Assembly: GCA_015061285.1 (NCBI GenBank)
Contig: SUWW01000006.1
Coordinates: 1-64,000, forward strand
Source: Bacteroidales bacterium
GTDB lineage: Bacteria; Bacteroidota; Bacteroidia; Bacteroidales; Marinilabiliaceae
DNA: 64,000 bases
Direction of reading: 5' to 3'
Position numbers and translations under genes: made by a program. Positions 132 to 16,857 of this stretch are shown one piece after another. Under the pieces are notes generated by a model, which was not told the origin of the DNA, did not search any database, and worked only from the letters and a program-made list of their open reading frames with translations. Numbering within the stretch: position 1 is the first letter of the stretch; the number at the start of each line of letters is the position of its first letter.

Positions 132-950
132 TTAAACTTTTTTCAGCACGTCCACTATATGCGACGACGCTCCAATCATATCCGGACGTTCGGCTCGTTG
201 CATTTGATATTTTACAAACAGTTCAAAAGTCTCGTTGTTCATTGCGTTCAGTTGTGTACGTATGAAGTCGGTAGGTCCGTCTGGCGAGAATATAGTTAGT
301 CGGGTTAGTCCTGTTTGCGTGTTAAGCATATCTATTGTTTCAAAATCGACATAATCGTATAGATCGTTTGGCGCTGGATGAACGCGGAATTTATCATCTA
401 TAGCACCTCGCGCTATGAGTTCTGTTATGCGATTTTCGGCAAAACAGTGCGACACTATGCTGTAGTCGTTCAATAGGTATGCTTGAAAAATTATGCCACC
501 ATCAACAGTTACATTCTTGGTTTCAGCAAAGGCTTGTAGTTTGTCATCGTCGCTGATGAGGTGATACATAGGGCCGAAACTTATTACAGCGTCAAATTTT
601 TGTGGCTCCAAGAATTTGAGATTTAGGGCGTTGCCTAAGTATGATTTGACGTCTGGTATGTTCTTGCGCAGAATCTCCAAATTGTGTCGAACGGGTTCTA
701 CGGCAGTTACGTCATAGCCCATCGAGAGCAATTCTTTAGTATAACGACCAGTGCCAGCTCCAAGGTCAAGAATTTTTATCTCCGACTTGTCTTTGTCTTT
801 GGGTAGGTAGTCGAGGATATATTTCATGGATACGCGAAACTCCACAACGCCGTGTCGACGTTGCAATCGCAAATCTTCTTTATGACTATTATAATGGCGC
901 TCTAACGCTGTTTGATCCTTTGTCGAATGATGTTTGAGTGGGTTTGTCAT
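132..950 (-). CDS. Class I SAM-dependent methyltransferase
   Basis: A 272-residue soluble protein with the Rossmann methyltransferase fold. Motif I is ILDLGAGTGRYTKEL (about residues 59-73), followed by an acidic motif II in YDVTAVEP and a motif IV-like FDAVISFGPMYHL, the last typical of small-molecule methyltransferases of the UbiE/Tehb type. The substrate cannot be read from sequence. Its ATG at 950 overlaps the TAA of the branching-enzyme gene (TAATG), so translation is probably coupled and it is the last gene of the folE-glgB operon. A methyltransferase has no obvious role in glycogen metabolism, so the linkage may be only transcriptional. Confidence 0.85.
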   Translation of the reverse strand: MTNPLKHHSTKDQTALERHYNSHKEDLRLQRRHGVVEFRVSMKYILDYLPKDKDKSEIKILDLGAGTGRYTKELLSMGYDVTAVEPVRHNLEILRKNIPDVKSYLGNALNLKFLEPQKFDAVISFGPMYHLISDDDKLQAFAETKNVTVDGGIIFQAYLLNDYSIVSHCFAENRITELIARGAIDDKFRVHPAPNDLYDYVDFETIDMLNTQTGLTRLTIFSPDGPTDFIRTQLNAMNNETFELFVKYQMQRAERPDMIGASSHIVDVLKKV

Positions 951-2944
951 TAGCGAATTCTAACTATGTCGCGACGGAGAAGTATCATTGCCGAGCGCGA
1001 TGGTAAATAGAGATGAAGGGTATGATGGTCGCCTTCGGGCTGCGTATAGAAGACAAAAAACATGTCGTTGCGGTCAAAGCCATTGAAGCGACCTTCGTCG
1101 GTAGAACAAACTATGCTATAGCGACCTTTGGGTGCTGGAATGCCATAGTCGGTGTATGAATTATTTGGAGAAAAGTTGAACACCAAGAGGTACTCACCGC
1201 GCATAAAAGCTACTACCTGTGTTGGGTCGTAGTCGTAAAGCCTATAAGGCCACGATGGCACTGGCACTTTCTTGAATATTTCAAGCATCTCTTTTTCAAA
1301 ATCGAGCAAGTAGTGGTATCGCAAATAATCTGCTTTTGCTAAACTCCACTGACGTCGAGCATATTTATAGCTCCAACCATTTCCTTCGCGTGGGAAGTCA
1401 ATCCATTCTGGGTGTCCAAATTCATTGCCCATAAATGTGAGGTATCCTCCCGATGAGGTAAATAGTGTTATGAGACGTATCATTTTGTGCAGCGCCATTC
1501 CTCTGTCTATGATTAGATTTTGGCTATCTACATTCATGTCGGTGTACATCTCTTTGTCCATCAGACGGAAGATAATTGTCTTGTCGCCCACGAGTGCCTG
1601 ATCGTGGCTCTCGGCGTAGTTAATTGTAAGCTCTTCTGGCCGATGAGCTTGCAGTTCATAAAACATTTTGCCTACTGGCCATTTTTCATCGGGCACCTCT
1701 TTGATGAGTTTTATCCAATAGTCGGGCACACCCATCGATAGACGATAGTTGAAGCCTACACCACCAGCACCCACTTCGCCTGCTATGCCTGGAAATCCGC
1801 TCATCTCCTCTGCTATAGTTATGGCGTTGGGCTTAAACTCGTGGATTGTAATGTTGGCAAGTGTTAGGTATGTTATGGCGTCATCATCTTCACCTCCGTT
1901 GAAATAGTCATCGTAGCATGTGAAATCTTTACCCAACCCGTGGTCGTAGTAAAGCATCGATGTTACGCCATCGAAACGGTATCCGTCGAAGTGATATTCG
2001 TCGAGCCAGTATCGACAGTTGGAGAGCAAGAAACGAAGAGTCTCGTTTTTGCCATAGTTGAAGCAGCGACTGTCCCATGCTGGGTGGTTGCCTCGGTTGC
2101 CGAAATGAAAGTATAGGTCTGTCGTGCCATCGAGACGCGAAATGCCTTCGTTTTCATTTTTCACGGCGTGCGAGTGCACTATATCCATAATTACAGCAAT
2201 TCCAGCTTGGTGTGCTTCGTCGATGAGCTGCTTCAATTCGTTGGGCGTACCAAAACGACTCGAAACGGCGAAGAAGTTACTTACGTGATAGCCAAAACTA
2301 CCATAATAAGGATGCTCTTGTATGGCCATAAGTTGAAGCACGTTGTAGCCAGTCTCGATGACGTGAGGCAGCACATTCTTGCGAAAATCATCAAAAGACG
2401 CAATTTCTTCTTTTTCACTCGACATGCCTATGTGAGCTTCATAAATAAGTAACGGCCGTTGGCATGGCGTGAAATCTTTGTCGTGCCACTTGTATGGCTT
2501 CTCGTTCCATGCCTGTGCGTCGAAAACGTATGTGTTTGGATCTTGTATTACACGATTCACAAATGATGGTATGCGCTCACCTTGTCCACCGTCCCAATGA
2601 ACCGACATTTTGTATTTGTCGCCGTGCTTCAGCGCTGTGTGGGGTATGTACAATTCCCAACTACCATCTTCGAGACGCGTCATTTTGTATGATGCATTCT
2701 CTTTCCATTGTGAAAATTCACCAATTACATATATATCGGTAGCATGTGGTGCATATTCGCGCAATACCCAAGAATCTTTCTCGTAATGTAGACCATAATA
2801 TTTATATGCCGAGGCAAAGTCTTGCAACGGTCCATACATTTCTTTTATTTCTTCAAGCTTGCCCATTGCTTGAGCGTGGCGTCGATCAATGGTAGGCGCA
2901 TAGGGCTTGAGCCAAGGGTCTGTTACATAGATTGGATCCATCAT
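950..2944 (-). CDS. glgB: 1,4-alpha-glucan branching enzyme (GH13)
   Basis: Transfers alpha-1,4 chains to alpha-1,6 positions during glycogen synthesis. From the start chosen here it has 664 residues. An N-terminal CBM48-like domain (around GEFSQWKENASYKM) precedes the GH13 barrel. Barrel motifs are DIVHSHAVKN (region I), DGYRFDGVTSMLY (region II, nucleophile Asp near residue 325), IAEEM (region III, acid Glu) and ESHDQ (region IV), followed by an all-beta C-terminal domain. A longer reading frame begins at 3010, but the ATG at 2944 overlaps the upstream TAA as TAATG and matches where conserved sequence begins (MMDPIYVTDP). The catalytic set is intact, unlike several partners in the second glycogen cluster. 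Confidence 0.93.
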   Translation of the reverse strand: MMDPIYVTDPWLKPYAPTIDRRHAQAMGKLEEIKEMYGPLQDFASAYKYYGLHYEKDSWVLREYAPHATDIYVIGEFSQWKENASYKMTRLEDGSWELYIPHTALKHGDKYKMSVHWDGGQGERIPSFVNRVIQDPNTYVFDAQAWNEKPYKWHDKDFTPCQRPLLIYEAHIGMSSEKEEIASFDDFRKNVLPHVIETGYNVLQLMAIQEHPYYGSFGYHVSNFFAVSSRFGTPNELKQLIDEAHQAGIAVIMDIVHSHAVKNENEGISRLDGTTDLYFHFGNRGNHPAWDSRCFNYGKNETLRFLLSNCRYWLDEYHFDGYRFDGVTSMLYYDHGLGKDFTCYDDYFNGGEDDDAITYLTLANITIHEFKPNAITIAEEMSGFPGIAGEVGAGGVGFNYRLSMGVPDYWIKLIKEVPDEKWPVGKMFYELQAHRPEELTINYAESHDQALVGDKTIIFRLMDKEMYTDMNVDSQNLIIDRGMALHKMIRLITLFTSSGGYLTFMGNEFGHPEWIDFPREGNGWSYKYARRQWSLAKADYLRYHYLLDFEKEMLEIFKKVPVPSWPYRLYDYDPTQVVAFMRGEYLLVFNFSPNNSYTDYGIPAPKGRYSIVCSTDEGRFNGFDRNDMFFVFYTQPEGDHHTLHLYLPSRSAMILLRRDIVRIR

Positions 2945-4251
2945 TATAGCTTTTGCATAGGTATGGTGAAGTAGATAGCTGTGCCGTTGCGATATTTTGT
3001 GTCGACCCAAATATCACCATCGACGAGCGTGATATACTTCTTAGCAAGAGCAAGGTTGATAGAGTCGTCGTCGTTCGAATTAGTGTCTTGACTAGAGAAT
3101 AGGTCGAATGCTCGCTCAGCGTTGTTAAGGTTCATTCCTTCACCAGTGTCGCGAACGAAGAATGTGATTTGGGTGTTCTCCACTGAGTAGCCCAAACTTA
3201 TCAATCCATACGACGTCTGCTTGCATGCTTTGTCGATAATCAATCCCATCACTTTGAGAATAATCTCTTCGCTGTTCCAAATGGTATCGTTTGGTGTCGA
3301 TAGTGCAAACGAAGTCTCTATTTGTATAGGTTTGTTCTCTTCTTTGAGTTGCTCTTCGTATTTTATTTTTATCGATGTCAGCAATTCGTTCAGTTGGCGT
3401 GGAACTGCAGGCTTGAACATGTAGCTAATCTGCAACTTGGATATTTCTACCATGTTGTCGATAAGCTTAAGCAGTATGTTGCTGTTCTGCTTTATGGCAT
3501 CGATGAATTCGTGGCGTTGTTCGGGCGATTCTGCTGATTCGAGCAGGTCGGAGAAACCTACAATCACGTTCATAGGCGTGCGTACTTCCTGACTTAGATT
3601 AGTAAGGAATATACTCTTAAACTCTCTGTTCTCAGCCGATTTTTCTTTTTCGCGTTTGAGGTCGGTTTGCAGAGCCTCTGCATTTTGGTTAAGTGCTAAA
3701 ATTCTGCTTTCGCACTGTTTCTGCATCTCTTTGTAGTTCTCGAGTGAAATTTCAGCTTCGAAAATAGGAGCAAGCAGGTGCATCAGCTGCGTCACTTCGT
3801 CTACTCGTTCGTATCGAGCCACCGAGAGCGCCATTAACAATCCCGTTACGACGTTGTATTTGTTTTTTATAGGTACTGATATGTATGCCGAGATGCCAAT
3901 TTTAGGAAATGGCATAGCGCTGAATATCTGCATGGCATCGTTGGAAGCCATAGCTTGAGTGTGTTGCCACGTGAATTTTGTGCCTTGCTCGCCATACGAA
4001 GGATCCGACGACTCTACAAGCCAATATTCACCATCTTTTTGTCCTTTAGCACATAATAGCACCACTTGGCTGCGTGTGATGTCTGCCAAATCGATGAGGC
4101 GACGTGCGCGGTTGTTGCTTCCTTGTGCCGACAATAGTTTTTTCAAACATGCTATATTATCGGATACAAAGTCGAGCATTTCAGCTGTGGTGTACGTGTG
4201 TTTTGTTTCTACAGCCTCTTTTTTTCTCTTGAATAACGATCTTAAGCCCAT
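2944..4251 (-). CDS. Histidine-kinase-like protein without phospho-acceptor His
   Basis: A 435-residue soluble protein with no membrane segment. Residues about 20-165 resemble a GAF-type sensor domain, 170-215 a coiled coil, 211-275 a HisKA-like dimerisation helix and 285-433 an HATPase-like domain. The H box reads NLSQEVRTPMN, with Gln221 (codon CAG) where the autophosphorylated His should be. The N box is LIIDKACKQT, lacking its Asn. The G1 box VRDTGEGM is kept, but the GLGL of G2 is SINL. Such a protein should not autophosphorylate in the usual way and may act as a sensor or scaffold. It sits between folE and glgB and shares stop-start overlap with glgB, so a role tied to glycogen control is possible but unproven. 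Confidence 0.8.
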   Translation of the reverse strand: MGLRSLFKRKKEAVETKHTYTTAEMLDFVSDNIACLKKLLSAQGSNNRARRLIDLADITRSQVVLLCAKGQKDGEYWLVESSDPSYGEQGTKFTWQHTQAMASNDAMQIFSAMPFPKIGISAYISVPIKNKYNVVTGLLMALSVARYERVDEVTQLMHLLAPIFEAEISLENYKEMQKQCESRILALNQNAEALQTDLKREKEKSAENREFKSIFLTNLSQEVRTPMNVIVGFSDLLESAESPEQRHEFIDAIKQNSNILLKLIDNMVEISKLQISYMFKPAVPRQLNELLTSIKIKYEEQLKEENKPIQIETSFALSTPNDTIWNSEEIILKVMGLIIDKACKQTSYGLISLGYSVENTQITFFVRDTGEGMNLNNAERAFDLFSSQDTNSNDDDSINLALAKKYITLVDGDIWVDTKYRNGTAIYFTIPMQKL

Positions 4252-9512: not shown

Positions 9513-12059
9513 CTAAAGCCACTTGAGCAATGGGAAGTCTTGCTTGTGAGGCAAAAGTGTATTGCTTGGGAATATACGTATGCCGAATTTGAAGAGGCCT
9601 GGATAGGTTAGTGCTAGTGCTACTTTGTAGGTAACAATAGATCCTTCAACCTTTTCAATTTCAAATGGTTCGGTGTGAACAACTTTCAATGTGTTGTCGG
9701 AATTTGATCCTGTAGAGAATACGAGTTCCATGCCGAGGTCTACATCGGTATTCTTTTTGTCGATGGTGATGCGAATTTTGTACAAATCGCCAATGCCGAG
9801 AACTTCTTTAGAGATGTCGGGCATTTCAACGTCGACAACTTCAATGCCGTCCCACATGTCGCGCACATTTTGTTTCCATGCGGCCAAGTCGCAAGCAGCT
9901 TTGAAGTTATTTGCCATAAGTACCGAGCCTCGTTTTTCTTGTGGTATGTAGAATTTGTTGAGGTAGTCGGTAATCATGCGTTTGGTGGTGAAATCGGGCG
10001 CAATTTGTGCCAACGATTTCTTGATGAAGCTAATCCAGCCCTTAGGAACGTCCTTTACTTGGTTGTAGTAGAGTGGAATGATTTCGTTCTCAAGTGTTTG
10101 GTAGATTATTGCAGCATCGAGTTCGTCTTGGTATTTTGTTTCGCGATATGTCTGTTTATCGGTAATAGCCCAACCAGCATCTTCTTTGTAACCTTCGTAC
10201 CACCAGCCATCGAGCACTGAGAAGTTAAGTACACCATTGAGTTCTGCCTTCTGACCACTTGTACCAGATGCTTCGAGAGGACGTGTTGGCGTGTTCAACC
10301 AAACATCGACACCAGAAATCAATCGGCGAGAGAGTTCCATGTCGTAGTTTTCGAGGAAGATAATCTTGCCAAGGAACTCTGGACGATGCGAAATTTCTAC
10401 AATATTCTTTATAAGGTTTTGACCACCACCATCGGCAGGGTGTGCCTTACCAGCAAAGATAAACTGAACAGGGTGCTCTGGGTTGTTGACAATCTTAGAA
10501 AGGCGCTCCAAGTCGGTGAAGAGCAAGTGCGCGCGTTTGTATGTAGCGAAACGACGAGCGAAGCCAATAGTGAGCGCATTAGGGCGAAGACCATCGAGTA
10601 CTTCAATAGCACGCGAAGGATTTACGTTGGCATTCAACGTGCTTACCATTCGATTTTTTACGTAGTCGAATAGTTTCTTTTTCAGTCGCTTGCGCACATC
10701 CCAAATGACAACGTCGTCGACATTGTATATCTTCTCCCAAACAGCTTTGTTGGATACGTCTTTGAGCAAGTTGGAACCGAGGTATTCTTCGTAGAAACGC
10801 TGCATTTCGCTTGCTGTCCAAGTGCCGTAGTGAACACCATTGGTAACATAATTTATATGTAGCTCGTCGGCAGTGAAGCCTGGCCATAGATATTTGAACA
10901 TATCTTTGGTTACTTCGCCGTGTAGCCAGCTAACACCATTCATCTCTTGAGATGTGCGTGCTGCGAGCACCGACATAGAGAACTTGCCGCTACTTTCGCG
11001 ACCAAGGTCCATAAATTCGTTCCATGATATGTTCAATAGTTCTGGTACGTGAGAGAAATAGCGATGCATCAAGCCTTCGTCGAAGCTGTCGTGTCCTGCA
11101 GGCACAGGAGTATGTGTGGTGAACAACGACGAAACTCTTACGACTTCAAGTGCTTCGCTAAATTTCAAATCTTTATCAGATAAGTTCACAAGACGTTGAA
11201 CATTCAAGAGTGCGGCATGACCTTCGTTGCAGTGGTACACATCGCTTTCGATGCCGAGAGTATCAAGGAGACGAACACCACCCATACCAAGTACAATCTC
11301 TTGTTTCAATCGGTTCTCCCAATCGCCACCATAGAGCGTGTGGGTGATTTGTCGATCTTCTTGCGAGTTGAGCACGTGGTCGCTATCAAGAAGGTACAGT
11401 GGAATTCGACCAACTTGAGCCTTCCATACTTTCAACTGAATTTGGCGACCTGGAAAATTTATAGGTATATAAAGGAGTTGACCATCTTTGGTGCGAACTT
11501 CATCGATAGGTAGGTTTTGAAACTCTTGTGCTTCATAGTTAGCTTGTTGCTCGCCATTAATAGAAAGAGTTTGAGAGAAATATCCGTATCTATATAGCAA
11601 ACCTACGCCTACCATATTAACGCAGCTATCAGAAGCCTCTTTCAAGTAGTCGCCAGCAAGAATGCCTAAACCTCCTGAGTATATCTTCAAAATGTTGGTT
11701 AGACCATATTCCATACTGAAATAGGCAATTCGCGGCTTGTATTCGAATGGACGTTCAAGATATGCACGGAATTTACCATATACAGCATTCAAGTTTTCTA
11801 CGAAATTGGCGTCTTCGGCCAATACTTTCAAACGCGAGAGAGAAACCTTTTCGAGAAGCAAAATAGGGTTCTTGCCCACCTGCTCCCATAAATCTTGATC
11901 GATGCTTTCAAATATATCCAATGCATCATAATTCCAACACCACCATAGGTTGCGAGACATTTCGTGAAGACACGCAAGCTCTTTAGGTAATTTCGATTTT
12001 ACAATAATCGATTTCCAAAGCGGCTCTGTGGACGGTTGAAAAATCCTCTTGTTTTCCAT
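9513..12059 (-). CDS. glgP: Alpha-glucan phosphorylase (GT35)
   Basis: Releases glucose-1-phosphate from glycogen or maltodextrin ends. The 848 residues and the N-terminal helical part (MSRNLWWCWNYDALDIF) mark the short TIGR02094-type phosphorylase, not the animal-type enzyme. Recognisable stretches are YFSMEYGL, YSGGLGILAGDYLKEASD, HCNEGHAALL, FTTHTPVPAGHD, GFARRFATYKRA and the PLP-lysine region EASGTSGQKAELNG. It starts 32 bases after the GH57 gene and is the last gene before the terminator, so it is probably co-transcribed with the other glycogen genes. Confidence 0.94.
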   Translation of the reverse strand: MENKRIFQPSTEPLWKSIIVKSKLPKELACLHEMSRNLWWCWNYDALDIFESIDQDLWEQVGKNPILLLEKVSLSRLKVLAEDANFVENLNAVYGKFRAYLERPFEYKPRIAYFSMEYGLTNILKIYSGGLGILAGDYLKEASDSCVNMVGVGLLYRYGYFSQTLSINGEQQANYEAQEFQNLPIDEVRTKDGQLLYIPINFPGRQIQLKVWKAQVGRIPLYLLDSDHVLNSQEDRQITHTLYGGDWENRLKQEIVLGMGGVRLLDTLGIESDVYHCNEGHAALLNVQRLVNLSDKDLKFSEALEVVRVSSLFTTHTPVPAGHDSFDEGLMHRYFSHVPELLNISWNEFMDLGRESSGKFSMSVLAARTSQEMNGVSWLHGEVTKDMFKYLWPGFTADELHINYVTNGVHYGTWTASEMQRFYEEYLGSNLLKDVSNKAVWEKIYNVDDVVIWDVRKRLKKKLFDYVKNRMVSTLNANVNPSRAIEVLDGLRPNALTIGFARRFATYKRAHLLFTDLERLSKIVNNPEHPVQFIFAGKAHPADGGGQNLIKNIVEISHRPEFLGKIIFLENYDMELSRRLISGVDVWLNTPTRPLEASGTSGQKAELNGVLNFSVLDGWWYEGYKEDAGWAITDKQTYRETKYQDELDAAIIYQTLENEIIPLYYNQVKDVPKGWISFIKKSLAQIAPDFTTKRMITDYLNKFYIPQEKRGSVLMANNFKAACDLAAWKQNVRDMWDGIEVVDVEMPDISKEVLGIGDLYKIRITIDKKNTDVDLGMELVFSTGSNSDNTLKVVHTEPFEIEKVEGSIVTYKVALALTYPGLFKFGIRIFPSNTLLPHKQDFPLLKWL

Positions 12060-12091: not shown

Positions 12092-13540
12092 TTACTTTTT
12101 CTCTGCTTTAGCTTTTGTGGCTTTCTTGGCAGGGGCTTTAGCTTTCTTTTCTTCAGTTTTCGACTCCTTTGAGGCTGTTTTCTTTGTAGCTGCTTTTGTG
12201 GTAGTGGCTTTTGTTGTTGATTTTTTTGCTTTTGATGTTTTCTCAACAATTGGGGTCACACCAGCTTTTACCAATTGCTTCTCGAGAGCGCTGATGGTCT
12301 CGTTTTGCTTTTTGATAGTAGCTTTGAGCTGTGCTGTTTCGTTTGAGTCGGTAGGAACAGCCTTGTGTAGGCGTTCGGTGAAGTCGGTGAGTACGTTCAT
12401 GTAGTTCATGAACGCATCGTATGGAGTTTGATACGGACTCTGGTATGCTCTGTTTACACCATTCGAGAAGAATTTGGTGGACATATAGTAGAAATGGTCG
12501 CTCGATTGCAAATATTGCCAATCTTTTAGAAGCGAAGGATCGTCGCATTTTGCAGCCAAATCCGAAAGTGCGTATAGTTTATCTACTGCTTCGTTTTGCA
12601 ACTCATTGCCGAGCCAAGCTGCTACGTCACGTTCTTCGTCGACCCAACTTGTAGGTGTAGGTACGTGGATAGCAGAAACTGGTTGTAAATCGTTGGCTGC
12701 CTTGCTTGGAGTGGTGAATACGTAGTTTTTGTCGTTGAGAAATACTGATGGAAATGCCTTTAGGAATTCAAAGATGCCTGTCTCTGCACTTTGATTTGAG
12801 CCGAAGGTCTCGTAGTTCATAAAGAGATTTACTATCTCGTCTTGCTCTGCTAAACCATCAATCCACGATTTGTATTTATCCACTGTTAATGGCCATTCGG
12901 GCCACGATTGATTGCCAAAACGAAGAGCTATGTCGTCTGAAAGACGATAGTTTTTCATAAGTACTTTCAGTCGAGGCTCTATAGCATTGCAATACATATA
13001 GTTAGGGCTCTTCCAACCTAATACTTGTTTTGCACCTTCAGCTAAGATTGCTTTGAATCCCATCTGCGATACTATTTCGCCGATGCTGTCGGAGTAGATA
13101 AGCTCAGTGTTGCGATATACGGTAGGCACTACACCAAATGTATCTTCGATGTTTTTCACTTGTTCGGCAACTTGGCGTTTGAACTCGTCAACGTTGCGGA
13201 GCGAGGCAAGAGAGTGAGCCGATGTTTCGGCGAGGAACTCTACGTGTTTTGTCTTTGCCAACTCCTTGAAGCTATCGATAACTTCTGGTGCGTAAATTTT
13301 GAGTTGGTCAAGCAAAGTACCCGATATAGAGAATGTTACCGAAAATTTGCCACGGTATTTCTTTATGAGGTCAAGTAAAATTCTGTTTGTCGGTAAATAA
13401 CATAGGTGCGAAAGACGATTGATGTTGCTCTCGTTAGCATAATCATCGTAGTAATAATGATCGTTACCTATATCGAAGAACCTGTATCTACGCAATTTTA
13501 CAGGTTGATGTAATTGGAAGTATAAGCAAATATTTTTCAT
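12092..13540 (-). CDS. GH57 alpha-amylase-like protein with Lys/Ala-rich tail
   Basis: A 482-residue cytoplasmic protein. Residues 1-390 form the GH57 beta/alpha barrel: the HQP motif is at 11-13 and the nucleophile Glu146 is in RNTELIYSD. The fourth conserved region reads NLFMNYETFGSNQ, with Asn242 (codon AAC) where amylases of this group have Asp as acid/base, so activity may be lost or changed. After a short coiled coil (about 395-425), residues 432-482 are a histone-H1-like tail rich in Lys, Ala and Thr. The gene is 11 bases after the GT4 gene. The trio debranching enzyme-GT4-GH57 is conserved in Bacteroidales (established knowledge). The family assignment is firm; activity is not. Confidence 0.88.
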   Translation of the reverse strand: MKNICLYFQLHQPVKLRRYRFFDIGNDHYYYDDYANESNINRLSHLCYLPTNRILLDLIKKYRGKFSVTFSISGTLLDQLKIYAPEVIDSFKELAKTKHVEFLAETSAHSLASLRNVDEFKRQVAEQVKNIEDTFGVVPTVYRNTELIYSDSIGEIVSQMGFKAILAEGAKQVLGWKSPNYMYCNAIEPRLKVLMKNYRLSDDIALRFGNQSWPEWPLTVDKYKSWIDGLAEQDEIVNLFMNYETFGSNQSAETGIFEFLKAFPSVFLNDKNYVFTTPSKAANDLQPVSAIHVPTPTSWVDEERDVAAWLGNELQNEAVDKLYALSDLAAKCDDPSLLKDWQYLQSSDHFYYMSTKFFSNGVNRAYQSPYQTPYDAFMNYMNVLTDFTERLHKAVPTDSNETAQLKATIKKQNETISALEKQLVKAGVTPIVEKTSKAKKSTTKATTTKAATKKTASKESKTEEKKAKAPAKKATKAKAEKK

Positions 13541-13551
13541 GTGTAGAAATT

Positions 13552-14844
13552 TTACTTGGACACTAATTCGTCGTAAATCTTTTTAATCTTATGAGCTGAG
13601 TTTTCCCATTTAAGAGAATCAACCTCTTCTTTGCCGTGTTTAGCAAAGAATGTAGAGAGAGATGGGTATGATAGAACACCATACATAGCATCGGCCATGG
13701 CATCAATATCCCAGAAATCAGTTTTTATAGCGTACGTCAGAATTTCCGATACGCCCGACTGACGCGATATTAGCACTGGCACGTTGCTTTGCATTGCTTC
13801 AAGAGGCGATATGCCAAATGGTTCCGATACAGAAGGCATAACATACAAATCGGACATGTGGAGCATAGAATATACATCTTGTCCGCGTAGGAAGCCTGTG
13901 AAATGGAAACGGTCCGTTATCTTAAGACTTGCTGCTCGACGAATCATCTTTTCCATCATATCGCCCGAGCCAGCCATCACAAATCGCACATTGTCCATTC
14001 GCTGAAGCACTTTGTTGGCAGCTTCAATGAAGTATTCTGGTCCCTTCTGCATTGTTATACGACCAAGGAAAGTGATGATTTTTTCATCTATACCTTTAGG
14101 ACTATATGTAATGTTTTGAGTTTTCAGTGGGTCTACAGCGTTGTATACAGTGACAACTTTTTCGGCTGGTATGCCATATTTTTCTATTACAATGTTGCGG
14201 GTCAAGTTGCTCACGGTGATGACTTTGTCGGCAGCTTGCATTCCTCGTCGTTCGATGTCGTAAACAATAGGGTTTACCGAGCCACCCGAGCGGTCGAAGT
14301 CGGTTGCATGTACGTGTACTACCAAAGGCTTGCCCGAAGCTTCCTTGGCTGCTATGCCTGCTGGATAGCATAGCCAATCGTGAGCATGGATAATGTCAAA
14401 ATCGTTGTCTTGGGCTATCATGTTGGCGATGATTGCATAGTTGCGAATCTCTTCCAACAATGTCGTTCCATATTTGCCAGTGAAGTGGAATTTACCTTCT
14501 GCGTCGGTTTGAAAGAAACGAAATGTTTCGCCAACGTTAAGCGAACGTAATCTGTAATAATCTTCGGGGTCTACATACGGCACAAGCTTTGAGTCGACTT
14601 CGATGTAGTCGAGTAATTGACTGTAGTGAGTAGTCCTTAATTTTCTATTCAAAACGGATATGTCGTTAGCTCCTATGATTCTCTCTACCTTGCTTTTGTC
14701 TTCATCGCCAAAAGCTTTGGGAACTACAAATTTGACCTTTAGGTCAGGGATTGAAGCCATTCCCCTTGTTAGTCCGTAACACGCAGTGCCAAGACCTCCT
14801 GAGATGTGCGGTGGAAATTCCCATCCGAACATTAATACTCTCAT
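13552..14844 (-). CDS. GT4 glycosyltransferase, probable glycogen synthase
   Basis: From the start chosen here it has 430 residues. The N-terminal GT-B domain begins MRVLMFGWEFPPHISGGLG, the glycine loop of glycogen and starch synthases. The C-terminal domain has GRITMQKGPEYFIEA and the EX7E motif SEPFGISPLEAM that binds the nucleotide sugar. A longer frame reaches 14910 but would overlap the preceding gene by 52 bases; the ATG at 14844 has AAAAAGG upstream and begins at conserved sequence. It probably extends glycogen with a nucleotide glucose. No glgC is in the window, so UDP-glucose use is possible but not shown. Confidence 0.88.
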   Translation of the reverse strand: MRVLMFGWEFPPHISGGLGTACYGLTRGMASIPDLKVKFVVPKAFGDEDKSKVERIIGANDISVLNRKLRTTHYSQLLDYIEVDSKLVPYVDPEDYYRLRSLNVGETFRFFQTDAEGKFHFTGKYGTTLLEEIRNYAIIANMIAQDNDFDIIHAHDWLCYPAGIAAKEASGKPLVVHVHATDFDRSGGSVNPIVYDIERRGMQAADKVITVSNLTRNIVIEKYGIPAEKVVTVYNAVDPLKTQNITYSPKGIDEKIITFLGRITMQKGPEYFIEAANKVLQRMDNVRFVMAGSGDMMEKMIRRAASLKITDRFHFTGFLRGQDVYSMLHMSDLYVMPSVSEPFGISPLEAMQSNVPVLISRQSGVSEILTYAIKTDFWDIDAMADAMYGVLSYPSLSTFFAKHGKEEVDSLKWENSAHKIKKIYDELVSK

Positions 14845-14858
14845 AGTTTGTACCTTTT

Positions 14859-16781
14859 TTATTTGGATTCTACATAATTCATAAGTTTTAGCACGGCAGC
14901 TACATTCCACGCCATCGAAATGGCTCCTTTAGCCTGATGTGGTGGATTGCCATTGTAGCTTTCTGATATTGTACCTATGCAATGTTGTGGTATCTCACTT
15001 TCGAAATCATCAACAATGCGGCGAAGCTGAGCAATGCCGCTATTCTTGTGTACGTCAACCATAACATCGGCGTAGAAACTGAGTAGCCATGGATATGCTG
15101 TGCCTTGGTGGATGGCAAGTGCTCGTTGGTCGGGGTCGCCCTCTATTGCTCCTACATATTTTTCGTCTTTAGGTGTAAGACTGCGTATGCCTCGAGGTGT
15201 GAGAAGCTCTTTGGTACATAGTTCCAAAATTTGCTTTTTCTGTTCTCTGCTAAGTGGTGTGTATTTCAATCCTGCAGCAATAAGTTGATTGGGCCTTACC
15301 GACGGCGATTTGTAGTCGCCATCTACATAGTCATATAGTGTGCCTTGTGGGGTGCAGAATGTGTTGAGAAATGATCTGCCTATCATTTCCAATCGAGGTT
15401 CCCATTCTGCCACGAAGGCTTTTTTCTTCAAATTGCGAGCAACTTCTATTGATGTTGCTATGGCGTTGTACCATAGTGCGTTGACTTCTACTGCGCATCC
15501 GTAACGTGGGGTGACTAATAAACCGTAAGAGGTCTTTGAGTTCATCCATGTCTGAGGCTGTCCTTCGTTTCGCGCATATATAAGGCCATTGTCCTGACGG
15601 TGCATCTTGCCTGGAACGCCATTCCAATAGTGGTTTAGCAAATCGCTCATCAAATCGAAGTAGTCGTTCACTCGTATTGTCTTTGGGCAAAATCGCTCCA
15701 TCTCGTTGATGCAGTAGAAAAACCAAAGAGGAACGTCGATTGATGTCGAGTTGAGCGCTGCTTGGTCGATATATAGTCGGCGCAGATTGGGTAGTGCCGA
15801 TTCGAATATTTCGCCATATACTTTTTTGTCGTCCTGATACATAGCAAGCCCCGCAAGAGCAACAAACATATCGCGCATTTGAGGTCCTTTCCAGTGGTAA
15901 CCTGCTTTGAGCATTACCGAACCGTCTTGGCGCTGCACAAACTGCTGTGCTGCGTTTATGAGTAGGTTTTTCATGCTGTCTTTGGGCGTGCGTTTCGATA
16001 CTTCACGACTGAATTTTGTCTTCAGTGTGCTTGTTGGCTGCTCATTGAGCGATGCCGACACCACTACTGATTCTCCTTTTTTTATTGGAAATTCAAAATA
16101 TCCAGGTACGTATAAATCTTCTCTATATCCATAGCCACGATAGCGCTCTTTGATATACTCTACATCGCGATACCAATCGGGCATAGATATAAACTCGGCC
16201 TTTTTCGAGGTCTGCATAAATAGAGTAGGAAATCCTTCGTAAAGACAGAATGATACGCCTCCGTTGCAAATGCCATAATGTGTATTGGCTTGGAAGTTCT
16301 CGTGGGTTAATTCATGAATGTTTCTGAATGCTAAAAATGGCTTCAGTCGCAATATGGTGTCTGAGTGAGCATCTTCGAGTGTGTATTTTATGAGTACTTG
16401 ATTCTCGTTTTGCGACAAAATAAATTCTTGCGATAAAACCACACCACCCACGCGATGCGTCATCTTGGTAGTAGGGTCGGCAGAGTAGTCGCACATATAT
16501 TTATGGCCTTTGGGCTCGAAATATTCACCTTTGTATTGTTGTATACCCAAGTTGAATGATCTTTCGTGTTGAATTACAGAGCATTGTAGTGATGATAACA
16601 TTACGTAATGGCCTCCGAATTTTTCTATTGGGCACACGAGTAGTCCGTGGTATTTACGCGTGTTGCAACCTACAATCGATGTGCTCATATATGCACCTGC
16701 TCGATTAGTTCTCAGTATCTCTTTGAACAAAGAGTACTCGAGATTGGGGAGTTTGGAATTGTCGAACTGGATATATTTCAT
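14859..16781 (-). CDS. Amylo-alpha-1,6-glucosidase-like glycogen debranching protein
   Basis: A 640-residue protein, first in its operon. Residues about 15-255 form a GDE_N_bis domain (NRAGAYMSTSIVGCNTRKYHGLLV). Residues about 270-637 form the (alpha/alpha)6 debranching domain, with YHWKGPQMRDMFVALAGL, TPRYGCAVEVNALWYNA and the C-terminal GTISESYNGNPPHQAKG. It should remove alpha-1,6 glucose from glycogen. The expected TWMD motif reads TWMNSKTSYG, with Asn414 (codon AAC) in place of an Asp which, from memory, corresponds to a catalytic Asp of eukaryotic debranching enzyme. The Glu of ISES is kept. Family firm, activity uncertain. Confidence 0.9.
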   Translation of the reverse strand: MKYIQFDNSKLPNLEYSLFKEILRTNRAGAYMSTSIVGCNTRKYHGLLVCPIEKFGGHYVMLSSLQCSVIQHERSFNLGIQQYKGEYFEPKGHKYMCDYSADPTTKMTHRVGGVVLSQEFILSQNENQVLIKYTLEDAHSDTILRLKPFLAFRNIHELTHENFQANTHYGICNGGVSFCLYEGFPTLFMQTSKKAEFISMPDWYRDVEYIKERYRGYGYREDLYVPGYFEFPIKKGESVVVSASLNEQPTSTLKTKFSREVSKRTPKDSMKNLLINAAQQFVQRQDGSVMLKAGYHWKGPQMRDMFVALAGLAMYQDDKKVYGEIFESALPNLRRLYIDQAALNSTSIDVPLWFFYCINEMERFCPKTIRVNDYFDLMSDLLNHYWNGVPGKMHRQDNGLIYARNEGQPQTWMNSKTSYGLLVTPRYGCAVEVNALWYNAIATSIEVARNLKKKAFVAEWEPRLEMIGRSFLNTFCTPQGTLYDYVDGDYKSPSVRPNQLIAAGLKYTPLSREQKKQILELCTKELLTPRGIRSLTPKDEKYVGAIEGDPDQRALAIHQGTAYPWLLSFYADVMVDVHKNSGIAQLRRIVDDFESEIPQHCIGTISESYNGNPPHQAKGAISMAWNVAAVLKLMNYVESK

Positions 16782-16849: not shown

Positions 16850-16857
16850 CAAAAGTA
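16850..16857 (-). promoter_or_regulatory. Candidate -7 element for the glycogen operon
   Basis: Reads TACTTTTG on the minus strand, a perfect TAnnTTTG match about 68 bases before the debranching-enzyme ATG. No clear TTTG is seen at -33. Confidence 0.5.

Follow-up and report, generated by a model that had tools for sequence, protein, structure and literature searches.

Four genes lie close together on the minus strand of the window, by which we mean the whole stretch of 64,000 nucleotides that was analysed. They are, in order, a GDE gene, a GT4 glycosyltransferase gene, a GH57 gene and an alpha-glucan phosphorylase gene (Table 1). The GDE reading frame starts with ATG, encodes 640 amino acids and stops 14 nt from the likely ATG of the GT4 gene (14844). 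The element TACTTTTG ahead of it resembles the -7 box of Bacteroidales. Pfam places GDE_N at residues 20-239 (3.3e-75) and GDE_C at residues 277-631 (1.6e-63; 215.3 bits against a cut-off of 21), and this is the two-domain build known from bacterial proteins of the GH133 type. The order GDE-GT-GH57 is also annotated in the records of Parabacteroides distasonis and Bacteroides finegoldii, the latter labelling its GH57 protein as alpha-amylase. The sequence-only reading had counted an active synthase among the neighbours. A synthase role is uncertain, since none of the glycogen-synthase models listed scores the GT4 protein above its cut-off. A 2024 review, in the part available, states that the function of GT4 in glycogen metabolism needs clarification (PMC11046441). 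Elsewhere in the window a single open frame on the plus strand (24211-55428) encodes 10,405 amino acids with many visible repeat segments.

Table 1. Positions in the window of the glycan genes and of the GDE codons discussed in the text.
Feature	Position	Strand	Basis or remark
GH133-type GDE_N/GDE_C gene, N414 replacing catalytic Asp	14859..16781	-	ORF, Pfam, alignment to 5d06/8zeq
Codon of Asn414 (TWMN; general-acid position, CgGDE D1241)	15540..15542	-	computed from ATG at 16781
Codon of Glu607 (GTISE; general-base position), kept	14961..14963	-	computed from ATG at 16781
Codon of Asp304 (CgGDE D1078, -1 subsite), kept	15870..15872	-	computed from ATG at 16781
Codon of Gln301, Trp in canonical relatives	15879..15881	-	computed from ATG at 16781
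Codon of Asp339, candidate substitute acid, rebuilt loop	15765..15767	-	computed from ATG at 16781
GT4 glycosyltransferase, likely start ATG 14844	13552..14844	-	ORF, Pfam, model scores
GH57 protein, N242 replacing acid/base Asp, nucleophile E146 kept	12092..13540	-	ORF, Pfam, alignment
Alpha-glucan phosphorylase	9513..12059	-	TIGR02094 over cut-off
GH13 branching-enzyme-like gene, apart from operon	950..3010	-	best match GlgB models, under their cut-offs
TACTTTTG, -7-box-like	16850..16857	-	68 nt before GDE start

The motif PQTWMNSKT places an Asn at residue 414 of the GDE protein. We built a profile from 32 relatives (alignment A2) and searched it against the PDB sequences, where it matches eukaryotic debranching enzymes with E-values of 7e-28 to 5e-26. 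The residue assignments were decided by this profile alignment, a single-sequence phmmer search against the PDB being too weak as residue evidence. TWMN aligns with T1238-W1239-M1240-D1241 of the Candida glabrata enzyme (CgGDE, 5d06; numbers counted along the alignment), Asp304 with D1078 of its -1 subsite, and Glu607 with the Glu of the LPE motif in 8zeq. The 5d06 alignment ends at 1442, and we infer that Glu607 corresponds to E1492 of CgGDE. According to the accessible text of the structural paper, Asp1241 and Glu1492 occupy the positions of the glucoamylase acid and base, and D1241A, E1492A and D1078N each abolish the glucosidase activity of the C. glabrata enzyme (PMC4837477). The window GDE lacks one of these three tested carboxylates, the general acid, and has the other two, the base Glu607 and Asp304. 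The proposal of the sequence-only reading that Asn414 replaces a catalytic Asp of the eukaryotic debranching enzyme is borne out by the alignment and the published mutagenesis together.

The profile alignment was used in place of a structural superposition because the active-site loops are poorly modelled. The predicted structure of the window GDE has a mean pLDDT of 65 and falls below 50 at residues 405-415 and 596-621, and the best Foldseek matches of this low-pLDDT model are GH63 and GH94 proteins with TM scores of about 0.4-0.5. A second GDE_C match in the genome (L002) is alpha-rhamnosidase-like and was dropped.

Asn414 is not the sole active-site change. Our own criterion for canonical relatives is a Trp before G-R-D together with a Pro-Asn loop, and both are missing here. 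The window GDE has GDE_C, the general-base Glu, the -1 subsite Asp and TWM in common with the eukaryotic GH133 glucosidase domain (5d06, 8zeq). It differs from that domain by the Asn in place of the acid, by Gln301 in place of the Trp of WGRD and by a loop with an acidic residue in place of the Pro-Asn loop, and unlike the eukaryotic debranching enzyme it has no glucanotransferase domain. Its pocket keeps Asp304, Trp412, Met413 and Glu607. The two-domain architecture is common to the prokaryotic GDE_N/GDE_C proteins described by the archaeal-type GDE model TIGR01561, but with 270.8 the window GDE remains under the cut-off of this model (364.15). W-G-R-D and TWMD are both present in each of five distant homologues (from Azospirillum, Caballeronia, Photobacterium and two Persicobacter); these were taken from nine plasmid records, among which a Nostoc record spans the protein end only and was not counted.

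Asn414 is the state of a lineage and not a peculiarity of the window genome. Among the 15 genomes of the genus that were searched, all 13 with the gene carry Asn at this position, which rules out a sequencing error or a private mutation. Across 149 relatives residue 414 is D in 82, N in 45, K in 12, E in 7, S in 2 and T in 1. These sequences comprise 65 unbroken members of the window's family (all family matches except G036, whose gene is in three pieces), 75 other sequences of the order and 9 from outside it. In the order, 225 genomes outside the family have a match; 75 of them were sampled, roughly one for each family-level group among the matches listed, and because that list was ranked by similarity to the window the sample leans to closer relatives. 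TWMN is also found in B. finegoldii, P. distasonis and Prevotella sp. oral taxon 299, and hence the Asn state occurs in named human-associated Bacteroidales. Frequent Asn at this position in active enzymes would have spoken against the sequence-only reading. Asn is indeed common (45/149), but no Asn member with measured activity was found in the open-access literature searched.

On a tree of the 133 loci that have both neighbours (FastTree, midpoint-rooted, with several weak nodes; 16 of the 149 loci left out as their GT or GH57 is too short or missing), residue 414 must have switched between Asp and non-Asp at least 14 times. The distant bacterial homologues keep Trp and Asp, as do four distant Bacteroidota sequences (L180-L183), which makes Asp414 with Trp301 the likely ancestral state. 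The Asn class keeps the rest of the protein: of the 70 columns conserved at 97% or more in the Asp class, only column 414 is below 70% in it, and the general base is present in all 45 Asn sequences.

The acid tends to be missing where Trp301 is missing. Outside the window's family Trp301 is absent from 18/19 non-Asp sequences against 6/65 Asp sequences, and the numbers are unchanged in three other alignment modes; within the family it is found in 0/65 members. The Pro-Asn loop (about residues 338-346) is scored as kept outside the family in 57/65 Asp against 0/19 non-Asp sequences by a test on two columns, which asks for Asn at 340 and for G, D or N at 342; two family members pass it by chance, and L176 fails it despite keeping Pro-Asn. 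A plain Pro-Asn test gives 52/65 against 1/19 outside the family. A Pagel-type test, run with our own code and without simulation controls as in all tests of this type here, connects the loss of the acid with that of Trp301 (likelihood ratio 30, p 4e-6). In the fitted model Trp301 is lost first: the acid disappears about 40 times faster from proteins without Trp301, and the rate for losing Trp after the acid is zero. Parsimony gives six acid losses and eight regains of Asp. Of the six losses, three fall on branches that had lost Trp before, two share their branch with the Trp loss and one (L176) occurs with Trp present. Since likelihood and parsimony differ, neither the order of the losses nor how many of them were independent is certain. 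Asp414 persists in 17/65 family members, all of them without Trp301, so the loss of Trp301 alone does not equal inactivity.

Nine relatives, L054-L062 (genomes G024-G032, part of one genus), carry W301S, W297F, D304N, D414K and E607Q and have lost all three known catalytic carboxylates. They keep the operon, and each genome has one GDE match. The concatenated tree places them beside L107, which has Trp301 and Asp414, and away from their own family (support 0.999). By this grouping they are an independent case, in which the operon was perhaps transferred and horizontally replaced in part of the genus. A second K/S lineage, L068-L071, has D304 changed to G or N in three of its four members. Two further sequences keep Asp414 with other changes: L160 has Trp301 but Gln at the general base Glu607, and L112 has Gly at 304.

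The GH57 neighbour matches PF03065 with 219.6 bits and has the motif LFMNYETFG with N242. This residue aligns with D349 of Thermotoga maritima AmyC, given in print as the acid/base of that enzyme; the E-value of 3e-4 is for the whole sequence, and the stretch itself is not significant. By alignment, then, both the GDE and the nearby GH57 protein lack a catalytic carboxylate, as had been suggested from the letters of the window. Exactly one catalytic carboxylate is missing from GH57 in 12/12 genus members seen, of which ten have N242 and the other two D242 but Gln at the nucleophile. The loci L044 and L045, with the acid Asp and a Gln nucleophile, are nested in the Asn-type clade of the genus, a swap of the missing carboxylate.

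Over the 133 loci the GH57 acid is D in 101, N in 26, S in 2, E in 2, A in 1 and T in 1, and the nucleophile is E in 126, Q in 2, G in 2, S in 2 and N in 1. In the alignment, B. finegoldii and the Prevotella have Ser in the nucleophile position and Glu in the acid position, and P. distasonis has Asn in the acid position. GDE and GH57 losses occur together in 29 loci, a GDE loss only in 33, a GH57 loss only in 7 and neither in 64. After correction for the tree the co-loss gives p 0.011, or p 0.18 if Glu is counted as acid, and the link between the two losses would seem weak. The phylogenetic test of Trp301 loss against GH57 loss is not significant (p 0.3). GH57 proteins that miss catalytic residues have already been described by the group of Janecek (PMC6037648), and the neighbour GH57, without one catalytic residue, is like their alpha-amylase-like group. 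These proteins are a precedent for catalytically incomplete glycan enzymes that are kept in genomes. The work covers GH57 only, and its available part mentions no GH133 neighbour (PMC6037648).

The GDE gene is under purifying selection in Asp and non-Asp relatives alike. In 12/16 tested pairs, those with computable dS, its dN/dS is 0.01-0.10, several of them having saturated dS. The two Asn pairs with usable dS give 0.049 and 0.055, three K/Q pairs give 0.04-0.07 (0.069 in the least saturated) and two Asp pairs give 0.070 and 0.069; in the remaining pairs, the window against L033 among them, dS is saturated or incomputable. The non-Asp proteins are about as constrained as the Asp ones. Full-length open frames are found in 65/66 family genomes with a match. 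In the exception (G036:C211:74641-76567) the gene lies in three pieces, possibly as a pseudogene or through an assembly fault.

We also compared the terminal branches of the catalytic and the N-terminal domain. The ratio of the two is 1.30 where Trp and Asp are kept, 1.71 where Trp is lost and Asp kept, 1.96 where Trp is lost and Asn present, 2.04 for Glu and 2.08 for K/S/T. Measured against the N-terminal domain, the catalytic domain thus evolves faster in all the other groups than in the one with both Trp and Asp. The window genus together with L042 has a ratio of 1.39 (interval 1.18-1.81), i.e. no clear relaxation of the catalytic domain.

Taken together, the window GDE probably no longer cuts the bond, or else does its chemistry with a different residue. 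The best reading, to which we give slightly less than even confidence, is that it may be retained as a non-hydrolytic, glycogen-binding partner. The protein would be a vertically inherited homologue of the GH133 amylo-alpha-1,6-glucosidase and would have ceased to work efficiently as a glucosidase. With the known general acid gone, its pocket still looks fit to bind a terminal glucosyl unit, and it could be kept to bind glycogen together with the GT4, GH57 and phosphorylase proteins of the same run, without hydrolysis. Such a role is slightly favoured because Asn keeps the shape of Asp and cannot serve as a general acid, and because carboxylate-free homologues are retained. A purely structural role would not require a pocket as well preserved as that of the Asn class, and the lack of clear catalytic-domain relaxation in the window genus counts against a dead enzyme.

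An alternative hypothesis, possible and not much behind in our judgement, could be that the GDE is still the debrancher of the cell, either with a proton from another residue, the likeliest being Asp/Glu 339, or as a slow Asn enzyme that suffices. Column 339 is acidic in 28/45 Asn sequences, 1/82 Asp sequences and 3/22 others, and in 13/13 members of the window genus (E in 8, D in 5). Three other alignment modes give 27-28/45 Asn against 1-4/82 Asp. The association of the 339 acid with Asn414 gives a likelihood ratio of 22 and p 2e-4 in the phylogenetic test, a value that is not significant if corrected for the about 640 columns that were scanned before 339 was chosen. A new acid at 339 together with Asn414 is more easily explained by a relocated acid than by a dead enzyme, and the otherwise intact pocket and the strong selection on the GDE agree with it. 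However, D1241A kills the C. glabrata enzyme, and 17/45 Asn sequences have no acid at 339. Columns 86 and 161 likewise turn acidic in the genus, both in the N-terminal domain. We regard Asp/Glu at 339 as a lead for a relocated acid, not as proof.

The other glycogen genes bear on the same hypothesis. The window genome encodes a GH77 match, a GlgB-like gene and SusG-like, cyclomaltodextrinase-like and amylase genes. Neither GlgX nor type I pullulanase was found in it (a draft, from which genes may be missing), and hence the GDE is its only obvious debrancher. Of the 67 non-Asp genomes, 63 were searched, and both GlgX and pullulanase are absent over cut-off in 49 of these; pullulanase is over cut-off in 7 and GlgX in 8, one genome having both. 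This survey dealt with GlgX and pullulanase in draft genomes, and GlgX was searched in the 63 non-Asp genomes only. The 49/63 genomes argue that the Asn protein still debranches. This is not decisive, because the nine K/Q genomes have no GlgX or pullulanase match either, so the absence of a known debrancher is tolerated. GlgX is present in all six TWME genomes searched (G016, G017, G050-G053; L081/G054 was outside the search), unlike in most other non-Asp genomes. Replacement by pullulanase as a compensation has no clear support, with pullulanase over cut-off in 7/63 non-Asp against 4/73 Asp genomes (tallied by hand). An odd pairing is seen in a frame of 1035 amino acids (L099:37-3141; G000:C24 near 159613), where an alpha-amylase domain comes after a Peptidase_S13 domain of the PBP4 type.

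We speculate that the two fates could be parts of one history, unlikely as the whole of it may be: on more than one occasion in Bacteroidales, a new Asp or Glu at 339 would have taken over as proton donor when Trp301 and the Pro-Asn loop were lost, leaving Asp414 free to become Asn, and elsewhere the same loosened site would have led to the carboxylate-free K/Q proteins with a non-catalytic job beside an equally altered GH57.

We consider it improbable that the pocket has changed its ligand and handles a phosphorylated or otherwise activated glucose such as glucose 1-phosphate, either hydrolysing it or serving as an allosteric sensor for it. The leaving group of glucose 1-phosphate needs no protonation, and the negative charge at the acid site is gone. 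Charges are neutralised with the shape kept, by N414 in the 45 Asn sequences, all with the general base, and by D304N and E607Q in the nine K/Q sequences, there with Lys414. The pocket changes of the K/S lineage L068-L071, with its G or N at 304, do not have such a pattern.

Deamidation of Asn414 to Asp after synthesis, which would make the GDE a slowly self-activating enzyme, is more doubtful again. Asn-Gly and Asn-Ser are fast-deamidating pairs. Ser or Gly follows residue 414 in 24/45 Asn against 3/82 Asp sequences, an association that survives the phylogenetic test (likelihood ratio 20, p 5e-4). But Ala follows the Asn in 20/45, several genus members included, deamidation cannot rescue the K, S and T versions, and in the window GH57 the Asn is followed by Tyr. 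Simple decay, with the GDE gene on its way out, would agree with the repeated loss of the acid and the broken gene of G036, but it is largely refuted by the selection signal and is the least probable of all; the full-length frames in the family and the presence of the gene in 229/247 genomes sampled from the order also speak against it.

From the locus order we take BT_4303 and BT_4305 of Bacteroides thetaiotaomicron to be the likely orthologues of the window GDE and GH57 proteins. They are given as GH133 and GH57 in a table published in 2026, which in the part available assigns Glc-alpha-1-6 to BT_4303 and Glc-alpha-1-4 to BT_4305 (PMC12834350), and BT_4303 is present in the accessible part of a proteome table (PMC8931616). 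A 2014 phylogenomic study, as far as its text is available, reports no direct experimental evidence for the function of bacterial GDE proteins (PMC4236520). The accessible part of the 2024 review mentions a Sulfolobus GH133 null mutant with excess glycogen (PMC11046441), and B. fragilis degrades intracellular polysaccharide when glucose is short, according to the available part of another review (PMC10395257). In the titles and partial abstracts of the open-access literature, we found no description of GH133 acid loss in Bacteroidales.

Should the altered members be inactive, reconstructions of the pathway in which they stand for the debranching step would be off, and how many Bacteroidales debranch their stored glycogen would become an open question; B. 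thetaiotaomicron also has GH13 alpha-1,6 enzymes in the available part of its table (PMC12834350). If they are active, GH133 would have a second catalytic arrangement. The family offers a natural series for comparison, from intact proteins through those with Trp lost and those with Asn, with or without the 339 acid, to those with all carboxylates lost.
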